Shown here: positions 5,043 through 27,577 of the stretch, piece by piece
Position numbering within the stretch: the first letter of the stretch is position 1
Layout: each line of letters begins with the position of its first letter
Assembly (NCBI RefSeq): GCF_005116675.2
Contig: NZ_CP050699.1
Span: forward strand, 1,387,001-1,451,000
Direction of reading: 5' to 3'
DNA: 64,000 bases
DNA from: Desulfosediminicola ganghwensis
GTDB lineage: Bacteria > Desulfobacterota > Desulfobulbia > Desulfobulbales > Desulfocapsaceae
The notes under the pieces: generated by a model
Seen by the model: only the letters and a program-made list of their open reading frames with translations
Told to the model about the DNA's origin: nothing
Databases searched by the model: none
Program-made: the position numbers and the translations under genes

Positions 5043-5609
5043 TTACTTCGTGTAAAGGGCTACTCCCAGTTCGAATGCACTATCCAGGCTCTGCTGGTCG
5101 CGATTGATGGCGGCGTGATCAGCAATTCCCATTACGCTCAGGCTGCCGACTACCTGCACATCAAGGTAGGAGAGGATCTGACGGAGGTCGTCACACACTT
5201 TTTCGGCCAGGTTCACCTGGGGATTACCACACACGGCTGCCACCACTGCACGCTTTCCGGAAATTCTGGAGCTGTAATCGGGGCGGAGAAAGCTTCCCCA
5301 GTGGTCGATGAATATTTTCATGCAGCTTGACATTCCCAGCCACCAGACTGGCGTGGCGATAACCAGACCATCCGCTTCTTCAATTCTTTGCAGTTGTCTG
5401 GAAACTTCCGGGAATTGCAGGCACTGGCCGGCCGTTCGGCAACGGCCGCAGGCACAGCAGACATATTTCTGCATTTCCACCAGATCGATCTGCTCAATTA
5501 TATCATCTTCCGCGCCCACAGAACGAATACCCTCAACGATTTTTTGGGCGAGAATATCCGTGTTGCTCTGCAATCTCGGGCTTCCCATCAGAATGATGGT
5601 TCTTTTCAT
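5043..5609 (-). CDS. NADPH-dependent FMN reductase / iron-sulfur flavoprotein-like
   Basis: A flavodoxin-fold protein of 188 residues. The phosphate-binding loop MGSPRLQSNTDIL follows the first strand. A cysteine cluster (CCACGRCRTAGQC, about residues 48-60) matches the iron-sulfur flavoprotein/NADPH-dependent FMN reductase family, and ATPVWWLGMSSCMKIFIDHWG is the typical flavin-site stretch. The start at 5609 is chosen over an upstream in-frame start because AAGGAGGAACC lies just before it. Probable cytoplasmic flavin-linked reductase; the electron acceptor is unknown. Stands alone with its own terminator. Confidence 0.85.
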   Translation of the reverse strand: MKRTIILMGSPRLQSNTDILAQKIVEGIRSVGAEDDIIEQIDLVEMQKYVCCACGRCRTAGQCLQFPEVSRQLQRIEEADGLVIATPVWWLGMSSCMKIFIDHWGSFLRPDYSSRISGKRAVVAAVCGNPQVNLAEKVCDDLRQILSYLDVQVVGSLSVMGIADHAAINRDQQSLDSAFELGVALYTK

Positions 5610-5753
5610 TGGTTCCTCCTTGCTTTTATCCAGTAACTCCCCTTCTTCAGTCAATCTATTTATACTGTACTTCGCCTAATTCTGCAAAATCATAGAAGTT
5701 ACCAAGGCATGCAAACGAAGGTGATTTTTAATAAACTGTTGTCAGGCTAACGG

Positions 5754-5780
5754 GTTCAGCCCGGATTTTTCATGAACATT
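5754..5780 (-). repeat. Dispersed repeat copy, minus orientation
   Basis: On the minus strand AATGTTCATGAAAAATCC then GGGCTGAAC, in the gap between two minus-strand genes. Same family as the copies at 38410 and 38556. Confidence 0.6.
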
Positions 5781-5933
5781 AAGACAAAGAACAATTCGAT
5801 TGCCAAGAAAGCCCAACACGGACCAGTCAGGAGTGAAGTGTGGTGGATGTCGCCCCTCACGCCGTATTTTTCCACAGTGTTCACCTGGGCTGAGTAGTAA
5901 CCCTTGGTTGAGTTCAACAGGAGAAAAATGATA

Positions 5934-6908
5934 TTAGTCCGCCATGATTATTCTGTCGCCGCCTTCCTGTTGCGCCTTTTCAAGTTGGTTGTTGACGATG
6001 GTGAGGATTTCACGGCCGGAGGTCGCTTTACAGGTAGAGTATGAGGTGAGGCCTATACTGACAGTGACATGCTGGTGGGCGTCAGTACTTATAACGGGCG
6101 CTTCCCTGCAGATCTGCAGAATACGGGCGGCTACGATCTGGGCGCCGCTGATACTTGTCTGCCGCAGTACAGCGAGAAATGTGTCGGCGCTGACCCTGAA
6201 GGCGAGATCAACCATCCTCAGGGTATTTTTCAGGTGTCTGGCGAACTGATGAACAGCTGCATCCATGAATTCGCCACCATGGTTGCTATAAGCAGCGTTG
6301 TAATCATCCAGGGCGAACATTAAAACTGAGAAGTCGGTGCCATAACGCCTGGCCTGGAAATATTCGTTATCGAGATTTGACTGTATGTTTTTGTGGTTAT
6401 AGAGCCCGGTAAGGTCATCAACCACGGAGAGTAGTTGTATCTTGTGTTCATTGTCCTTGTTACGCTGCTGCATGAAATACAGCTCTTCACGGGTTTCCTT
6501 TAACGATTGTGTGAGTTCCGATTTTTCTTTTAACAGATCGCTCAGCTGCATGGCATCAGAGAGTGTTCGAAAAAGTTCCTCCTTGCTTACCGGAATCCGA
6601 ATAAATCGAAAGATGTCTCCGCTGTTAATCGCCTGTAGAAGACGTAAAGGGTTTGCACTCTTTATCAGGCAGACCCGCACCATTTTAGGGTAGAGAATAC
6701 GGGCCAGTTTATGCAGTTCCAGTCCCTCGCCATCTGTCATGTGCAGGCCGCTGACCAGGATTGCGATGGGATGCTGTTGGATAATCTGCAGGGCTATATC
6801 GGCATTTGCTGCAAAGTGGCAGGTGAAATGCTCTTTGCGCAACATCCTTTTGATTGCGTAAAGCGTCGGTTGGTCACTGTGGACGAAGAGGAAATGAGGA
6901 TCACGCAT
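5934..6908 (-). CDS. Degenerate receiver domain fused to degenerate GGDEF domain
   Basis: A 324-residue protein. Residues 1-120 align with receivers, but the acidic pair is replaced (FVHSDQP instead of FVDDEP), the phosphoacceptor Asp is missing (ILVSGLHM against ILVTDMQM in its neighbour), and the conserved Lys is gone. A coiled-coil linker follows. The GGDEF-like domain (about 165-320) begins VVDDLTGLYNHKNI, but the signature that should read GGDEF is SADTF. Neither phosphorylation nor diguanylate cyclase activity is expected, so it is probably a protein-protein or ligand-binding output. Last gene of a minus-strand operon, starting 4 bp after the upstream stop. A GTG at 6929 is an alternative start. 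Confidence 0.85.
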   Translation of the reverse strand: MRDPHFLFVHSDQPTLYAIKRMLRKEHFTCHFAANADIALQIIQQHPIAILVSGLHMTDGEGLELHKLARILYPKMVRVCLIKSANPLRLLQAINSGDIFRFIRIPVSKEELFRTLSDAMQLSDLLKEKSELTQSLKETREELYFMQQRNKDNEHKIQLLSVVDDLTGLYNHKNIQSNLDNEYFQARRYGTDFSVLMFALDDYNAAYSNHGGEFMDAAVHQFARHLKNTLRMVDLAFRVSADTFLAVLRQTSISGAQIVAARILQICREAPVISTDAHQHVTVSIGLTSYSTCKATSGREILTIVNNQLEKAQQEGGDRIIMAD

Positions 6909-6912
6909 TATA

Positions 6913-8262
6913 TTACCCGCTGGTAGCACCTTGCAGGCCGCTTTCGGCCGTGTATTTATATGAGGTTGCTTTCTCTGGAACCCTCAGGGCGAGGCAGGTC
7001 AGGTTAGAGTCCTGCTCACCACCTTCGGGGTTATTCAGCAGCCGCGGTCCAAGCTCATAAAGTGGCGGCCTGACTTCGAGCTCAGCGAATTCCTGAACCG
7101 TTTCAGCAAATTTACCGTCGCTTATCTGCCACTCGAGCTGTACACCGTCTAGTGGGGTAGTGTGCAGATAAAAGAGCAGAATGTCTCCCGGTGCCAGGGC
7201 AAGTGACTTTGTGTTGTATCCTGTGCCTTCGAGCAGGCCGAGAGGCGGATTGCCGCCTTTATGGACTGCGTAGCTACCGGTGGCACCTTGATAATGAAAG
7301 ATGTTGATCTTGCCGCAGTCGATATAATGTAAGTTGTTTTTGTTGTATCTGCTGTAGAGCATGTTCATGGAGAGGCCAAGAGCGCGCAGTTTCGGCAGCG
7401 TTTCCCGGTCAATGTCACCAACCAGGTCAGCCAGGTCAGCCGCCTCAGCCCCTCTCCTCGTGTTATCGCTGTAACTCTGGATCACCGCTTTCAAGATGAT
7501 ATTTTTAAAACCCAAACCGAGCAGGGGAGACCTGTTGGAACCGGTAATGATGTTACCGAGCAGAATATCGGTGCAGTCAGAAGCGGTGACAAGACAATCG
7601 GAGAAAACGGTATTGATTGCCTGACTCGATTCCGTCACAGTTGCAACTTCTATATGGGTCTCCTGCTGGGGTTGCCCAGTTCTCAAAAGTTCAAGGCGTA
7701 CCTGCTTTTCATATTCATTTTCAATACGATGGCTTACCTGCTGCCCCTGATCTGTGGGCACTATACCTGTTGCCGTTTCAGGCTTTACAGGCCGATCCCC
7801 ACAGCTTGACTCCAGTTCCGGCAGGGTAGTGGTGAGTTCTGGTGTTCCCTCGGCGGTAACCGTTTCCCAAAGCTGGGCCATGCGGTAATACTCAACCGCG
7901 TCATGCAAGATTGAACGGAACAGTTTCGGGTTGAGCGGTTTTATGATGTAGCGAAAGATTTCTCCGCTGTTGATACTGGCCATGGTCTGTTCAAAATTGG
8001 TATTTGCACTCAGCACCATGCGTACGATAGAGGGATAATGTTCTTTGGCATACTGCACTAGCTGCGTACCGTCCATACCCGGCATCTGCATGTCAGTGAC
8101 CAGGATGTTGATATCTCCTCTTTTCAGTCGCTCCAACGCCTCGAGACCGCCACTGACGAACTCCGCGACATATTCTTCCCTTTTAAGAAACCTCTTGAGC
8201 GCGTTCAGGATATCCGGCTCGTCATCGACAAAGAGTATGGTAATCTGTTCAATGGGAATCAT
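6913..8262 (-). CDS. Response regulator with PP2C/SpoIIE-like output domain
   Basis: A 449-residue protein. The N-terminal receiver (residues 6-120) is intact: FVDDEPD acidic pair, phospho-Asp in ILVTDMQMPGMDG, and Lys in IIKPLNPK. The C-terminal part (about 215-430) has the layout of an RsbU/SpoIIE-type phosphatase: KGGNPPLGLLEGTGY and LAPGDILLFYLHT. The metal-binding motifs are altered (GNIITGSN where GDVSGHG is usual, LHT where TDG is usual), so activity is doubtful. RBS AAGGAGGAAGT before the ATG at 8262. It overlaps the kinase gene by 14 bp, so the kinase is its probable phosphodonor. Confidence 0.85.
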   Translation of the reverse strand: MIPIEQITILFVDDEPDILNALKRFLKREEYVAEFVSGGLEALERLKRGDINILVTDMQMPGMDGTQLVQYAKEHYPSIVRMVLSANTNFEQTMASINSGEIFRYIIKPLNPKLFRSILHDAVEYYRMAQLWETVTAEGTPELTTTLPELESSCGDRPVKPETATGIVPTDQGQQVSHRIENEYEKQVRLELLRTGQPQQETHIEVATVTESSQAINTVFSDCLVTASDCTDILLGNIITGSNRSPLLGLGFKNIILKAVIQSYSDNTRRGAEAADLADLVGDIDRETLPKLRALGLSMNMLYSRYNKNNLHYIDCGKINIFHYQGATGSYAVHKGGNPPLGLLEGTGYNTKSLALAPGDILLFYLHTTPLDGVQLEWQISDGKFAETVQEFAELEVRPPLYELGPRLLNNPEGGEQDSNLTCLALRVPEKATSYKYTAESGLQGATSG

Positions 8263-10228
8263 GGGTTACTTCCTCCTTCTGGTCCACAGGCAGGGAGATG
8301 GTAAAAATTGAGCCACCTTCGTCCGGGCAGTGCAGGGAAAGCTCGCCACGGTGTTTATTGACGATGATGTCATAAGAGATCGACAACCCGAGTCCTGTTC
8401 CTTTACCGGGGGCTTTGGTTGTGTAAAACGGCTCGAAAATCTGGCGGCGCTGCTCAATCGGAACACCGGGGCCGTCATCACGAAATTCACAGAGTATGGT
8501 ATTTCCTTCCTGCCAGGTCCGTATGGAAATCAGGCCCTTGTCTGTTCGATCCTGAGAGGCGATGGCATGGGCGCTATTGACAATCAAGTTGAGAAACACC
8601 TGGCTTAATTGCTCCAGAGAGCAATGGATGTCGTCAACATCTCCAAGCTCTGTGTGTACATCAGCATGATATTTATATTCGTTTCTGGCGATAATCAGAG
8701 TGTCCTCAATGCCGCTATTGATATTGGCCCAGGAGAATTCGCCGCTGAAATCGATTCGGGAGAAATCACGCATTGATTGAATGATCTGGGCAATGCGGAC
8801 AAAACCACGTTCAGACTCGTCAAAGAGTTGGGGAATATCTTCAAGAAGGTGCTCGATACCGAGTTTTTTGTGCAGCATCTGCACTTCGGCCGCGGGTTCG
8901 GCCAGGAGCGGATTTTCGGCGGCTTTCTGGGTGAGGATCTCATATTTGCTGTGGATGAGCAGCAGGTCATCAAAATCTTCGACCAGGGTGGCGAAATTGG
9001 TTCGTACGAAATTTATCGGATTGTTGAGTTCGTGGGAAAGGCCCGCCGCCAGTTGCCCGACTGAGGCCATTTTCTCCTGCATAACCAGCCTGTCCTGGGC
9101 TGTTTCCAGTTCAATGGTTCTGTCAGAGATCTGTTCCTCCAGCCCCTCATTGAGTATGCGAAGCTGCTCCTGGCTTTCCTGTAGTTCCCGGGTGCGTGCC
9201 TCTACTGTGACTTCAAGATTCTCTTTAGCATCCAGAAGTGCTTTCTCCCGGGACTGGATCTGACGTGTCAGCCTGTTATATTCCTCAGCGAGTGCGGATA
9301 TTTCCAGAAGGCGCTGATCCGTTGGCAACACATTATCGGTTGGATCGTTGTACATCTTCAACACCATCTGTCGCAGGTTTTTCAACGGTTTGGCATACAA
9401 TCGGTTTGCGAAATAGAGCGAGATACATAGAAAAGCGAAGGCCGTGGCCATCAGTGCCAGGCTGACCTTAACAACTATACTCATTCTGGTCCGGTTAAGA
9501 GCAGTGTCATCCATGCGGCACAAGATGAGCAGGTGCGGATCAGCCATAACATGCGTGTAGGCTAAGGTGTCGATTCGCGGCCCGAAGGTGGCAACGCTCT
9601 CTCCGTGCTGGATGATCTCAATTTCTATATTTTCGGCAGTGGGAAGGTGGGAGTGAAATGTATTCAGTCCGGTAAGATCAATTTCCGCAACCAGAATTCC
9701 TTCCGGTTGTCCGCCGAACAAGACAGGTATGGCGATACGCCAATAGCGTCTTGGGAGTATGGTGGTAGTGGAGCTGATCTCCCAGTGATACGCGATTTTT
9801 CCACCAATCAGCTTTTGTACCCAGTGCTCACCGGTGTAGTCAAAAACTGGTAATGGCCGGGATGAGTTGATGCTTCGCCCCTTGAAATCAAGGAGGTTGA
9901 GCTGGCATTCTGTGCCGATGAGGGTCATGCCTTGCATCGCATCTATCAGTTGCGGGCGCATCTCTCCGGGTTGCATGACACTTTGGGTAATGAGCGGACG
10001 CTGGGCCAACTCCTTGAGAGCCTCCTTTTTATCGGAGAGAAAAGTCTTTATGGCTTTACTGACGTCTTCGGCATCCTCCCGGGTAGTTCGTTCCTGGAGA
10101 TCTTTGATGGCAGAACCGACCTGGAAGTTGATACTTCCGGCGATGACCACAACCAGGATCATGGCTATCACAATTGAATAGGTGATCAATGCTCTGCTGA
10201 TCGGGAATTGGGAGGGGAAAAGTTTCAT
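8249..10228 (-). CDS. Membrane-bound sensor histidine kinase
   Basis: A 659-residue hybrid-free kinase. Membrane segment at about 13-33, an extracytoplasmic sensor of about 210 residues, a second membrane segment near 253-273, HAMP, then a long coiled coil (about 325-400). The HisKA H-box is SVGQLAAGLSHELNNPINFV. The ATPase domain shows FRDDGPGVP, FEPFYTTKAPGKGTGLGLS. The H-box type matches kinases that partner with receiver-first regulators such as the one encoded next. Operon order is small membrane protein, kinase, receiver-PP2C, pseudo-receiver-GGDEF. The signal sensed is unknown. Confidence 0.94.
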   Translation of the reverse strand: MKLFPSQFPISRALITYSIVIAMILVVVIAGSINFQVGSAIKDLQERTTREDAEDVSKAIKTFLSDKKEALKELAQRPLITQSVMQPGEMRPQLIDAMQGMTLIGTECQLNLLDFKGRSINSSRPLPVFDYTGEHWVQKLIGGKIAYHWEISSTTTILPRRYWRIAIPVLFGGQPEGILVAEIDLTGLNTFHSHLPTAENIEIEIIQHGESVATFGPRIDTLAYTHVMADPHLLILCRMDDTALNRTRMSIVVKVSLALMATAFAFLCISLYFANRLYAKPLKNLRQMVLKMYNDPTDNVLPTDQRLLEISALAEEYNRLTRQIQSREKALLDAKENLEVTVEARTRELQESQEQLRILNEGLEEQISDRTIELETAQDRLVMQEKMASVGQLAAGLSHELNNPINFVRTNFATLVEDFDDLLLIHSKYEILTQKAAENPLLAEPAAEVQMLHKKLGIEHLLEDIPQLFDESERGFVRIAQIIQSMRDFSRIDFSGEFSWANINSGIEDTLIIARNEYKYHADVHTELGDVDDIHCSLEQLSQVFLNLIVNSAHAIASQDRTDKGLISIRTWQEGNTILCEFRDDGPGVPIEQRRQIFEPFYTTKAPGKGTGLGLSISYDIIVNKHRGELSLHCPDEGGSIFTISLPVDQKEEVTHDSH

Positions 10229-10458: not shown

Positions 10459-10897
10459 CAACGTCCTCTGGTTGAAATATAGTACGGATGATGGTTGCTC
10501 CGGGTAACTTTGTCACGGTTTCTGAGGTAAAGTAATACCGTGGTTGGCCTCGTGAAGGGCGTGGAGCCGAGTGCCTGTCTGTCAACTGCTGCTTCTTCTA
10601 TTATATGGTGCTGCTAAGCGAAGTCCAGTAAGTGAATTTAGGCCATATAGCGAGTTATTATGCATTCCCTATGCGGAAAATCCACAACCCGTGACCCTTG
10701 GCCATAACAGTTCGCCTGCAAATCATTGTTCAGGCTCTGATGAAATTGGTCGATTACCAATTGACGAGGCGTTACTACAGAGTCATAGTATTTCCAGGAT
10801 GATTTGATCTTGCTGGGGGAACCGCAAGAATGTTCACTGAGGGTCTGGTAGACCTTCAGTTATGACAGAGTGAAATAAAAGACTTATTGAGGATGAT
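10459..10897. other. Divergent intergenic region
   Basis: A 439-bp gap between the minus-strand signalling operon and the plus-strand methyltransferase, so it should carry promoters for both. No convincing gene is present. The one clear structure is a hairpin, ACTGAGGGTCT (10836-10846) / AGACCTTCAGT (10850-10860), 38 nt before the methyltransferase start codon. It has no T-run, so it is more likely a leader or operator structure than a terminator. Confidence 0.5.
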
Positions 10898-11761
10898 ATG
10901 GGTGATTTTCCTAAGTGCGACCTGAAAACCGGAGTGTGAGCTCCACCTGATTTGGCCGGCGGTCTGCCGGTACAGAATACGTCACAGCCTGTAAAGCATG
11001 TTGATCAGGTTGCTGGCGAGGCCTTTGGTGTAGGTGAGTTAAAAAACATCGCCTCTGCGGTGCACAGCAAGTACGCATCCGTAGCGAATTCTGCTGAAGG
11101 GATGTTTCGATATCCTACCGGGCGTGAAGGTGCGGTGAAGTTGGGATATGATGAGGCGATTCTTGCAGAGATGCCCGTAGAGTCACTGAACAGTTTTTGT
11201 GGCGTTGGTAATCCCCATGCCATTGCACCTGTTGTGGAAGGTGCTCATGTGTTGGATGTTGGTTGCGGCGCTGGTTTCGACCTGATTGTTGCCAGAAAAA
11301 CCGTGGGTGGTTCAGGGCGGGTTTGCGGTATTGACATGACCCCGGAAATGCTGGAGCGTGCCAGGAAGAACTTTTCCGAACTAGGTGTCCAGAATATCGA
11401 GCTGGAGCTGGTCGATTCAGAAAAAATACCCTATCCGGATGAAACCTTCGATGTGGTGATCTCCAATGGAGTAATCAATCTCTCTCCGGCCAAGCTCGCG
11501 CTCTTCAGGGAGATTCGCAGGGTACTGAAGCCGGGAGGCAGGCTGCAGTTTGCTGATATCGTGTTGGCTCAACCGTTGCCTGCTGCCATGAAAGGTAATC
11601 TCGACGCCTGGGCCCAATGAGTGGGTGGCGCGGTCTCCGTGAGAGACCAGATTGCACTGATGGAAAAAGCTGGTTTCAGCAATGTGGAGTGTGTCGGTAA
11701 CACAGGTATCAGTACTTCTCAATTTACTGAAGGAGCATTGTTTATTGCAGTAGCCCGATAG
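10898..11761 (+). CDS. ArsM-like SAM methyltransferase with two predicted selenocysteines
   Basis: Reading UGA at 10937-10939 and 11618-11620 as Sec gives one 287-residue protein. Conventional annotation would give only a 222-residue fragment from a TTG at 10952. SAM motifs are VLDVGCGAGFD, IDMTPEM and ISNGVINLSP, as in arsenite methyltransferases. Sec14 sits in CDLKTGVUAPP, matching the DLKTxACC motif of ArsM. Sec241 sits in DAWAQUVGGA, matching the GECLGGAL cysteine (Cys224 of the algal enzyme, from memory). After the second UGA the frame continues for 46 family-like residues to TAG. The ATG at 10898 has GAGG 5 nt upstream. The NLS-motif Cys of ArsM is Gly here. Substrate (As, Se or another metalloid) is unproven. 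Confidence 0.88.
10956..10970 (+). promoter_or_regulatory. Predicted bacterial SECIS hairpin for Sec14
   Basis: Stem CCGGC / GCCGG with apical loop GGUCU, beginning 16 nt after the UGA and with the loop 21 nt after it. The loop matches the SelB-binding apical loop of E. coli fdhF (recalled as AGGUCU) and the spacing is within the usual bacterial range. Confidence 0.75.
11632..11648 (+). promoter_or_regulatory. Predicted bacterial SECIS hairpin for Sec241
   Basis: Stem GGUCUC (11632-11637) / GAGACC (11643-11648) with loop CGUGA starting 17 nt after the UGA. An alternative 5-bp stem (CGCGG/CCGUG, 11629-11641) would place UCU at the apex. Either could recruit SelB; which forms is undecided. Confidence 0.6.
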
Positions 11762-11804
11762 AGCTATCTCATTTCTTATTGTTTTTGGACCATCTCTTTC
11801 ACCG

Positions 11805-11843
11805 TACGGCCTGCTACATTTTTGTAGTGGGCCGTATCTTTTT
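11805..11843 (+). terminator. Intrinsic terminator after the methyltransferase
   Basis: Interrupted stem TACGGCC..CTACA / TGTAG..GGCCGTA (11805-11836) followed by TCTTTTT. Its place 43 bp after the TAG at 11761 supports that TAG as the true gene end. Confidence 0.8.
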
Positions 11844-25960: not shown

Positions 25961-27577
25961 TCAGGAGCTTCAAGAGAGCATTGAGCACCCCACTTTATGC
26001 CTGGCCCATTCCGGCCGTTTCTGAAAATACTTTTCCCTCTCTGGTTGTTCATCATACGGATGACGCAGCAGGTCATGAAGCTCATGGATCAGGGAAGGGT
26101 CACCGTCTTCAGCTTTATCGATAGCCAGCTGAGCCATATAATTCCGTAATACATATTTTGGATTTATCCGGTTCATCCGGGATTTCCTCTCACGCTTATC
26201 AAGGTTATCAGCCTGCAGTCGCCTGCGGTATAGGTTGAGCCAGTTCTGCAGTCTCTGCAGATACTTCCTGTTAATCGCCTCAGGCTGATAGTACGCATCC
26301 GCGAGTTCAGAGGGGAGCTGATGTAAGCCGGTGCCGGGGGCATCAGCCGGGCTGACATCAGCAAGATTCCTGAAGAAAATCGTCATATCCGTTTCAGCGC
26401 TTGAGAGGATATCGAGCAACTCGTTCACCAGGTCGTCATCGGTGCTGGTGTTGAAACTCCGCAGGCCAAGTTTACCGGCCATAGTGTTCTGCCAGCTTGT
26501 CAGAAAGACCCGGCGATAACTGTTGTTCAGAATTTCCTGGAGGCGTGCGGCCTCTCCGGTGATTGAGTGGAATGCATTTGCCAGCTGAGTCAGGTTCCAG
26601 AGGCCTATGTGAGGCTGGTTGCCGTAGCTGTAGCGTCTCCCTTGAAAATCTGTGGTATTGGGCGTCCAGGTAACATCATATGGCTCCAGCCAGCCATACG
26701 GTCCGTAGTCGATGGTGAGTCCGCTGGTGGACATATTGTCGGTGTTCATTACCCCATGCACGAAGCCAACCCGCATCCAGTGGTCGATCAGGTGTGCGGT
26801 ACGTTCACATATTTCGGCAAACATCTGCGGTACCGCGTCCGGGGCAGAGGCGTCGAGATGGGGGAAATCCGTCGCCAGGGTATAATTGATGAGCGTCTGC
26901 AGGGTTTGGGTATCGTTTCTTGAAGCAAAAAGTTCAAAATTACCAAAACGTAGAAAGGATGGCGAGACCCGGCAGACAACCGCACCGGGCTCCATGCCGG
27001 GATGACCGTCATAGAGAATATCACGCAGCACCTGCTCACCTGTGGTTATAAGGCTCAGCGCCCTGGTGGTGGGGATACCTAGATGATGCATCGCTTCACT
27101 GCAAAGAAATTCGCGCACAGAAGAGCGAAGTACCGCCAATCCATCGGCGCGTCTTGAGTATTGCGTCGGTCCGGCACCTTTAAGCTGCAGTACCCAGCGG
27201 TCACCCCGGGTATTAATCACCTCACCGAGGTTGATGGCCCGGCCATCACCCAGTTGCCCGGCCCAGTTACCGAACTGGTGCCCACCATAACACATGGCAA
27301 AGGGCGACATATCGGGGAGCACTGTATTGCCGGCAAATACCTCGGTAAACAGGCGTGAGTTGCAGGCAACGTCATCAAGGTCGAGCAACCGGGCAACTTC
27401 GGGTGAGTATGCCAACAGCTTAGGTCCACTGACCGGCGTGGGTTGTACTTTCGAATAACAGGCTTCGTAAACCTGCCTCCTGTTATTCGAGACATCGGTA
27501 TCGCCGGGGAGGTTATTGACAAAACTGTTGTCAAACTGGAGGGCTTCAAGTTTCGCTGGGATAAATCCGTTTAGCAT
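25961..27577 (-). CDS. selO: SelO pseudokinase / protein adenylyltransferase, predicted selenoprotein
   Basis: A SelO (YdiU) protein of 538 residues when UGA at 25970-25972 is read as Sec. Core motifs are CYGGHQFGNWAGQLGDGRA, QLKGAGPTQYSRRADG, MNTDNMSTSG and IDYGPYGWLEPYD. SelO transfers AMP to proteins under redox stress. The conventional ORF would stop at GCSMLS, but the UGA is followed by AGC TCC TGA, giving GCSMLS-Sec-Ser-Ser-stop. That matches the C-terminus of eukaryotic SelO, where Sec is the antepenultimate residue, and the Cys-Ser-Ser ending of most bacterial SelO. A SECIS-like hairpin follows. Confidence 0.88.

Follow-up and report, generated by a model that had tools for sequence, protein, structure and literature searches.

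In the marine sulfate reducer Desulfosediminicola ganghwensis, a single gene of 288 codons (positions 10898-11761, + strand, of the window, i.e., the whole 64,000-nucleotide stretch of DNA that was analyzed) contains UGA solely at codons 14 and 241. Comparison with relatives shows that it encodes a predicted SAM-dependent methyltransferase, 287 residues long and belonging to the ArsM superfamily, and that both UGAs are kept; both are almost certainly recoded as selenocysteine (Sec). The best explanation overall, which has about an even chance of being correct, is that of a double-Sec methyltransferase whose N-terminal arm would lie over the pocket so that two selenolates hold the substrate. 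As far as the family models and papers compared go, this conserved double selenoprotein appears to be a new architecture in a known group, and it provides 37 readable natural sequences with the second Sec at the N terminus. Annotation that takes UGA as a stop would yield a product running from after codon 14 to codon 240, devoid of either selenol.

Reading frame and conservation of the two UGA codons

A preliminary description of the same DNA had proposed a frame opening at an ATG preceded by GAGG, closing at a TAG and carrying UGA at codons 14 and 241, and re-reading and translation of the stretch confirmed it. The features of the gene are the following:

10889..10892, + strand: GAGG resembling a ribosome-binding site, 5 nt ahead of the ATG, as read in the sequence
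10898..11761, + strand: double-Sec methyltransferase gene, 287 aa plus TAG, as translated with TGA read as U; present in 38 genomes of the order
10898 (start, ATG) and 11759-11761 (stop, TAG), + strand: limits of the frame
10898..10999, + strand: N-terminal tail, residues 1-34, with Cys7 and predicted Sec14; low model confidence
10937..10939, + strand: UGA codon 14, predicted Sec14 of the tail; UGA in 37/37 readable members from the order
10956..10970, + strand: SECIS-like hairpin 1, CCGGC-GGUCU-GCCGG, from folding of the window stretch; its loop starts 24 nt past the U of UGA14
11198..11200, + strand: codon of Cys101 in FCGVGNP, invariant in the 29-protein alignment and aligned with residue 70 of the CmArsM chain
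11204..11206, + strand: Val103 at the place of ArsM Cys72 in the alignment to 4kw7/4fr0, Cys101 lying two residues before
11237..11638, + strand: SAM-dependent methyltransferase domain, residues 114-247 (PF13847 Methyltransf_31, Pfam score 122.5 bits, cut-off 27)
11468..11470, + strand: Gly191 at the place of ArsM Cys174 (SNGVINLSP), from the alignment to 4kw7/4fr0 and the residue states of 151 rows
11618..11620, + strand: UGA codon 241, predicted Sec241, aligned with ArsM Cys224; U in 38/38 members from the order
11632..11648, + strand: SECIS-like hairpin 2, GGUCUCC-GUG-AGAGACC, from pairing, double changes and energy
11804..11837, + strand: terminator-like hairpin with a T run past the TAG, from a pattern scan

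The terminator that had also been proposed after the TAG has a terminator-like hairpin and T run, but three such sites occur in the stretch against a shuffle mean of 1.8, which makes it weak evidence taken alone. Scans of the window with Rfam models and for tRNAs returned one tRNA-Met and nothing else.

Relatives were searched for among 193 genomes and then among 257 genomes of the order. The double-Sec gene is found in 38 of the 257 genomes, always at 328 bits or more; what two further genomes above the threshold carry is a different gene, in G075 one that lacks the tail, and likewise in G030 another gene. Codon 241 is UGA in 38/38 members from the order and codon 14 in all 37 that are readable there, the contig of G162 beginning within the gene. 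Both columns are invariant in an alignment, with Sec printed as C, of 29 full-length proteins, namely that of the window and 28 others at 47-62% identity, and homologues run on through both in-frame UGAs, as is sought in a selenoprotein gene. Cysteine occupies the U241 column in ArsM homologues; no Cys was found in place of U14 among the loci read.

In the 34 genes whose tails are in register (L130 included), the 1247 in-frame codons from UGA14 to the methyltransferase core contain no stop, vs. 32 and 60 stops in the two remaining forward frames and 41, 33, and 39 in the three reverse ones. Proline at position +2 after U14 is invariant in these 34 genes (34/37 overall), three tails (L256-L258) having the UGA without this Pro. 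An ATG lies precisely 13 codons ahead of U14 in 25/37 genes, and L257 has only GTG or TTG ahead of its U14. In L258 (genome G031), the N-terminal tail holds two UGAs (GGGU...GGGU), which brings the gene to three; an ATG precedes the first, no start codon follows this preceding UGA, and the tail looks like a duplication.

Hairpins and selenocysteine machinery

Taken alone, the hairpins of the window are not clearly more stable than shuffled sequences (z of -0.14 at UGA14 and -1.17 at UGA241). Their support comes from hairpin alignments read across relatives, gapless from the UGA, with 33 genes at UGA14 and 500 shuffles that do not preserve relatedness; these alignments exclude L132, whose contig starts in the gene, L252, which is L127 over again, L130, which nearly duplicates L127, L259, which lacks a U-x-P tail, and L256-L258, whose tails fall out of register. 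At UGA14, the stem formed by columns 19-24 with 29-34 has 81.8% of cells paired vs. 72.0 (sd 2.0) in shuffles, 31 cells changed on both sides vs. 13.4 and a covariation score of 0.360 vs. 0.183, and pairing reaches 61.1% at most when the stem is slid out of register. Counts of doubly changed pairs (290/500 shuffles reach the value) and of pair types (242/500) do not exceed the shuffles, so that this hairpin beats them on three measures out of five. A loop of 4 nt suits the fixed columns, and the genus to which the window belongs has one of 5 nt. At UGA241, 94.4% of stem cells are paired vs. 86.2 (sd 1.5), 26 cells show double changes vs. 10.8, the covariation score is 0.317 vs. 0.173, and sliding leaves 67.5% paired at most; pair types are again not above shuffles (498/500 reach the value).

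Folding energy was compared with synonymous-codon shuffles in 36 genes (L132, L252, L257, and L259 left out, L130 kept). The mean z is -1.20 at UGA241 (33/36 negative) and -0.29 at UGA14 (24/36 negative), the latter being near the -0.16 of control windows and not significant; RNAalifold predicts six pairs at UGA241 and three weak ones at UGA14. This amino-acid-preserving null may have little power at UGA14, because the stem and loop of hairpin 1 appear to encode the common Gly-Gly after U14. Hairpin 2 is thus well supported as a SECIS-like element and hairpin 1 moderately so. The preliminary description had assigned a hairpin to each UGA: both stand in register with some covariation, but the energy test supports the second only.

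These data also bear on two ways of doing without a second Sec. If U241 alone were Sec, UGA14 would genuinely terminate a short leader, with the start of translation lying further on, a reading that could draw on the UGA14 hairpin being no more stable than synonymous shuffles, on a TTG five codons past UGA14 in the window gene and on some start-like codon ahead of the core in 21/37 genes. It is nevertheless very improbable in view of UGA14 in every readable gene, the Pro at +2, the stop-free frame, the in-register covariation and the 16/37 readable genes that have no ATG, GTG or TTG from UGA14 to the core. Gene decay or chance read-through, for which no supporting point was found, has a negligible probability, as it is contradicted by conservation at ~50% identity over several families of the order; chance is excluded for both UGAs because the same columns recur across relatives. 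The two Sec codons originally proposed are hence borne out by column conservation and by the absence of in-frame stops, and recoding of each UGA by tRNA-Sec and SelB would make use of the hairpin that follows it.

The D. ganghwensis genome encodes a tRNA-Sec (75.4 bits, gathering cut-off 47), SelB (384.7 bits, cut-off 242.25) and two SelD proteins above cut-off, each of whose genes has one in-frame TGA (L214 and L217 in G000, the genome of the window). The check for sel genes that had been suggested at the outset thus finds selC (tRNA-Sec), selB, and selD in place. No selA match was obtained in this genome or in its sister G003, but the sequence reads N at the expected place, which lies beside the counterpart of the gene next to selA in a sister genome; a match above cut-off exists in 12 of the 14 genomes compared. 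Archaeal-type Sec synthesis was considered as an explanation for the lack of a selA match and rejected, since SepSecS was not found in the four genomes searched and the expected selA place is N. The excerpts of PMC12013277 count 40 known selenoprotein genes in D. ganghwensis. Within the window, a SelO-like gene (25970-27577, - strand) would, if its TGA were read through, give GCSMLS-U-SS and then TGA, with a possible Sec third from the end, and a Sec-containing SelO is already listed for this species in the same excerpts (PMC12013277).

Relation to ArsM and to known multi-Sec methyltransferases

The assignment to the ArsM superfamily made in the preliminary description is upheld by sequence and fold: the top five of 17 PDB sequence matches are arsenic methyltransferases, and the top Foldseek matches are the ArsM structures 4fr0 and 6cx6, in agreement with an ArsM-type SAM methyltransferase fold. 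The structure model has a mean pLDDT of 87.5 with high confidence in the core. Its first helix begins at residue 35, block means over residues 1-40 range from 43 to 64, and pLDDT is <50 at residues 1-7 and 13-21; the N-terminal tail is probably disordered, as judged from this model. Alignment to 4kw7/4fr0 places U241 at Cys224, G191 at Cys174 and V103 at Cys72, so that the three As-ligand cysteines are represented by Val, Gly, and Sec. The Sec241 place lies in the substrate pocket of solved ArsM proteins.

Both UGAs had been thought to fall at metalloid-binding cysteines of ArsM. This is true of U241, but U14 corresponds to no ArsM cysteine, and the DLKT motif that had been noted at U14 is not conserved in the 29-protein alignment. 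A match of U14 with Cys44 of CmArsM, which lies 28 residues ahead of Cys72, was rejected, as U14 is located 89 residues ahead of V103.

Residue states were tabulated for 151 homologous rows, of which the order set supplied 38, a phylum search 27, wider genome contigs 80, and other sources 6; the rows are related and partly picked by similarity (80 of 364 loci kept, and 27 of the loci from the phylum search), hence the counts are not independent events. Cysteine is present at both the 72 and 174 places in 66/151 rows, which have 64 Cys and 2 Sec at the 224 place. It is present at neither in 85/151 rows, which have 83 Sec and 2 Cys at the 241 place. The two Cys rows are L055 and L092 (Balneolales/Chloroflexi records). 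Two ArsM-type genes of the same order, L203 and L204, keep the Cys72 and Cys174 places and have UGA at the Cys224 place. In a quick tree built from 103 rows after masking of the trait columns, 85 Sec-side rows split from 18 ArsM rows (SH-aLRT 98), and the genes with an N-terminal tail fall within a 39-row set (SH-aLRT 98) that includes the tail-less L024 and L142, in which Cys101 and U241 are kept. A single-Sec branch of the same clade also lacks Cys101.

The preliminary description had taken the protein for an arsenite methyltransferase in which Sec replaces ArsM cysteines at both UGAs. The superfamily fold and sequence and the U241/Cys224 correspondence speak for this reading, but it is improbable given the Val and Gly at the Cys72 and Cys174 places, the absence of an ArsM counterpart for U14, a score of 213.9 bits against the ArsM model NF008823 (cut-off 263) and the separation of the Sec-enzyme clade from ArsM in the masked tree. 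The As(III) binding through selenolates that was proposed along with it is a prediction, and two of the three known As ligands are absent. The split from three-cysteine ArsM also puts the label "arsenite methyltransferase" in doubt for the Sec clade.

Excerpts of the literature already count arsenite methyltransferase among the selenoprotein families (PMC2398784; PMC9312934; PMC13188914), and L203 and L204 look like such one-Sec ArsM genes. The window protein shares with ArsM/AS3MT (NF008823, PRK11873; CmArsM 4fr0, and 6cx6) its fold, sequence, and the Cys224 place, but lacks Cys72 and Cys174 and has an additional Sec tail. Methyltransferases with two or three Sec, including NF047649, NF041536, NF041537, and MduS, appear in the excerpts of a 2026 review, which credits them to Haft and Tolstoy 2025 (PMC13188914). 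The earlier remark that two Sec would be unusual therefore holds in part only, as 2-3-Sec methyltransferases are already covered by NCBIfam and, in its excerpts, by this review.

All 29 aligned proteins match NF041537, NF047649, and NF041536 at E 1e-50 or better. The best NCBIfam match of the window protein is NF041537 (ArsM_AhpD_UU, 290.9 bits over residues 49-285), and the motif UxxG that the review excerpts list for the methyltransferase Sec of this family (PMC13188914) is the same in the window protein; however, the score is below the cut-off of 510 and the window protein ends after the methyltransferase part. Of the three AhpD-type loci scanned (L154 and L155 lying outside the scan), L146 and L149 pass this model (604.1 and 625.5 bits) and L151 does not (505.8 < 510); unlike the window protein, L146 and L149 have further UGAs on the C-terminal side and no N-terminal U-x-P. 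NF047649 (MTase_UXPK_star) resembles the window protein in having two Sec, one in the methyltransferase domain and one on a terminal tail, but this tail is C-terminal and the window protein scores 265.2 bits (cut-off 460). NF041536 (ArsM_DUF2284_UU), listed with two Sec in the same excerpts (PMC13188914), is similar in the methyltransferase part (264.7 bits), but its cut-off of 575 is not reached and its 459-position profile is matched only to position 246. MduS, which could conceivably be the same family, also combines a methyltransferase domain with two Sec in the excerpted table (PMC13188914); the motif listed there, CxxU, fits neither UGA of the window. Judging from their names and passing loci, the further Sec of NF047649 and NF041537 is C-terminal, whereas that of the window protein is N-terminal and a TAG follows residue 287.

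The N-terminal Sec tail is covered by none of the reference family models checked, the tail regions of 10 members gave no NCBIfam match with E as high as 1, and no such tail on a methyltransferase is described in the open PMC papers searched. In the order, Cys occurs 7 codons ahead of U14 in 15/34 genes and directly ahead in 6/34, and Gly-Gly directly before U14 is common, not general (G in 19/34 at each place). None of the 27 loci outside the order, read by eye, has an N-terminal U-x-P tail. Five of them have a C-terminal Sec tail (four ending in GG-x-U-x-PK-stop, one in GU-VRK-stop), and all five pass NF047649 (505.6-521.5 bits), the P at +2 of the GG-x-U-x-PK endings being as in the N-terminal tail. 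Five outside-order loci have an AhpD-like part, four of these with a UGA in it, and toward the end they have further UGAs, part of them possibly stops. N- and C-terminal tails resemble each other (Cys upstream, GG, U, P at +2), a likeness that is no more than suggestive.

Possible roles of the two selenocysteines

Canonical ArsM holds inorganic arsenite by Cys72, Cys174, and Cys224. In the mechanism proposed here for the double-Sec enzyme, the N-terminal arm would fold over the pocket and bring Sec14 to Sec241, with Cys101 nearby; the Sec pair would hold a soft electrophile, and SAM would donate the methyl group in this two-selenolate pocket. The likeliest candidate for the electrophile is a trivalent arsenical that is already partly methylated, or a different metalloid with a need for two ligands only. 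Such a metalloid mechanism, in which the substrate is a prediction, is possible, at somewhat less than an even chance. The excerpts of one study give three ligand sites for arsenite, two for methylarsenite and one for dimethylarsenite, and state that Cys174 and Cys224 suffice for the second methylation step of CmArsM (PMC3877260). Against the two-selenolate mechanism stand the absence of two of the three known As ligands, among them Cys174, which these excerpts present as needed in that second step (PMC3877260), the lack of a conserved neighbor, and the tail-less L024 and L142 of the same clade.

Since the single-Sec branch of the clade is also without Cys101, a role with one ligand only, or in redox chemistry, can be envisaged just as easily. 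Thioredoxin reductase, with its C-terminal Sec tail, offers a model for a redox arm: Sec241 would be a catalytic or redox selenol that becomes oxidized or bonded to Cys101, the mobile Sec14 arm, with the upstream Cys, would reduce it, and something other than a metalloid could accept the methyl group. An arm devoid of confident structure, relatives with a further Sec at the other end (the five loci that pass NF047649) or within an AhpD part, and the Cys located 7 codons or directly before U14 in some genes all suit this scheme. It is rather unlikely all the same, as the 39 regions clustered show no conserved reductase partner and L024 and L142 keep Cys101 and U241 without any tail.

Returning to the two-selenolate pocket, a broader reading may be put forward tentatively and as a whole: the Sec proteins would be selenolate methyltransferases forming a clade of their own rather than arsenite methyltransferases, a single Sec in the active site having taken over from the arsenite site with its three cysteines. 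A portable Sec arm (often Cys...GG-U-x-P) would have become attached to them, N-terminally in this order and C-terminally elsewhere in the phylum, and the resulting two-selenolate pocket would serve a substrate class such as a methylated arsenical or a compound of some other soft element. The contrast of ArsM, with three cysteines, and enzymes with Sec only leads to the prediction that an enzyme's count of chalcogen ligands determines the methylation step open to it.

Neighbor genes were clustered over 39 regions (38 retrieved ones plus the window), some of them cut by contig ends and one, that of L259, without the tail. No gene family accompanies the methyltransferase throughout, and a conserved operon was rejected, as the commonest neighbor clusters reach 7/39 regions. 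Named by eye, a heavy-metal-type P-ATPase lies near the gene in 7/39 regions and a TVP38-like membrane protein in 5/39. In the window, likewise by eye, the gene is flanked by a divergent histidine-kinase gene on one side and by outer-membrane-protein-like genes on the other. An FMN-reductase-like gene occurs near the methyltransferase in G003 and G002, and in the window (5043-10228) three signaling-type genes lie between the two, all of these names being given by eye.
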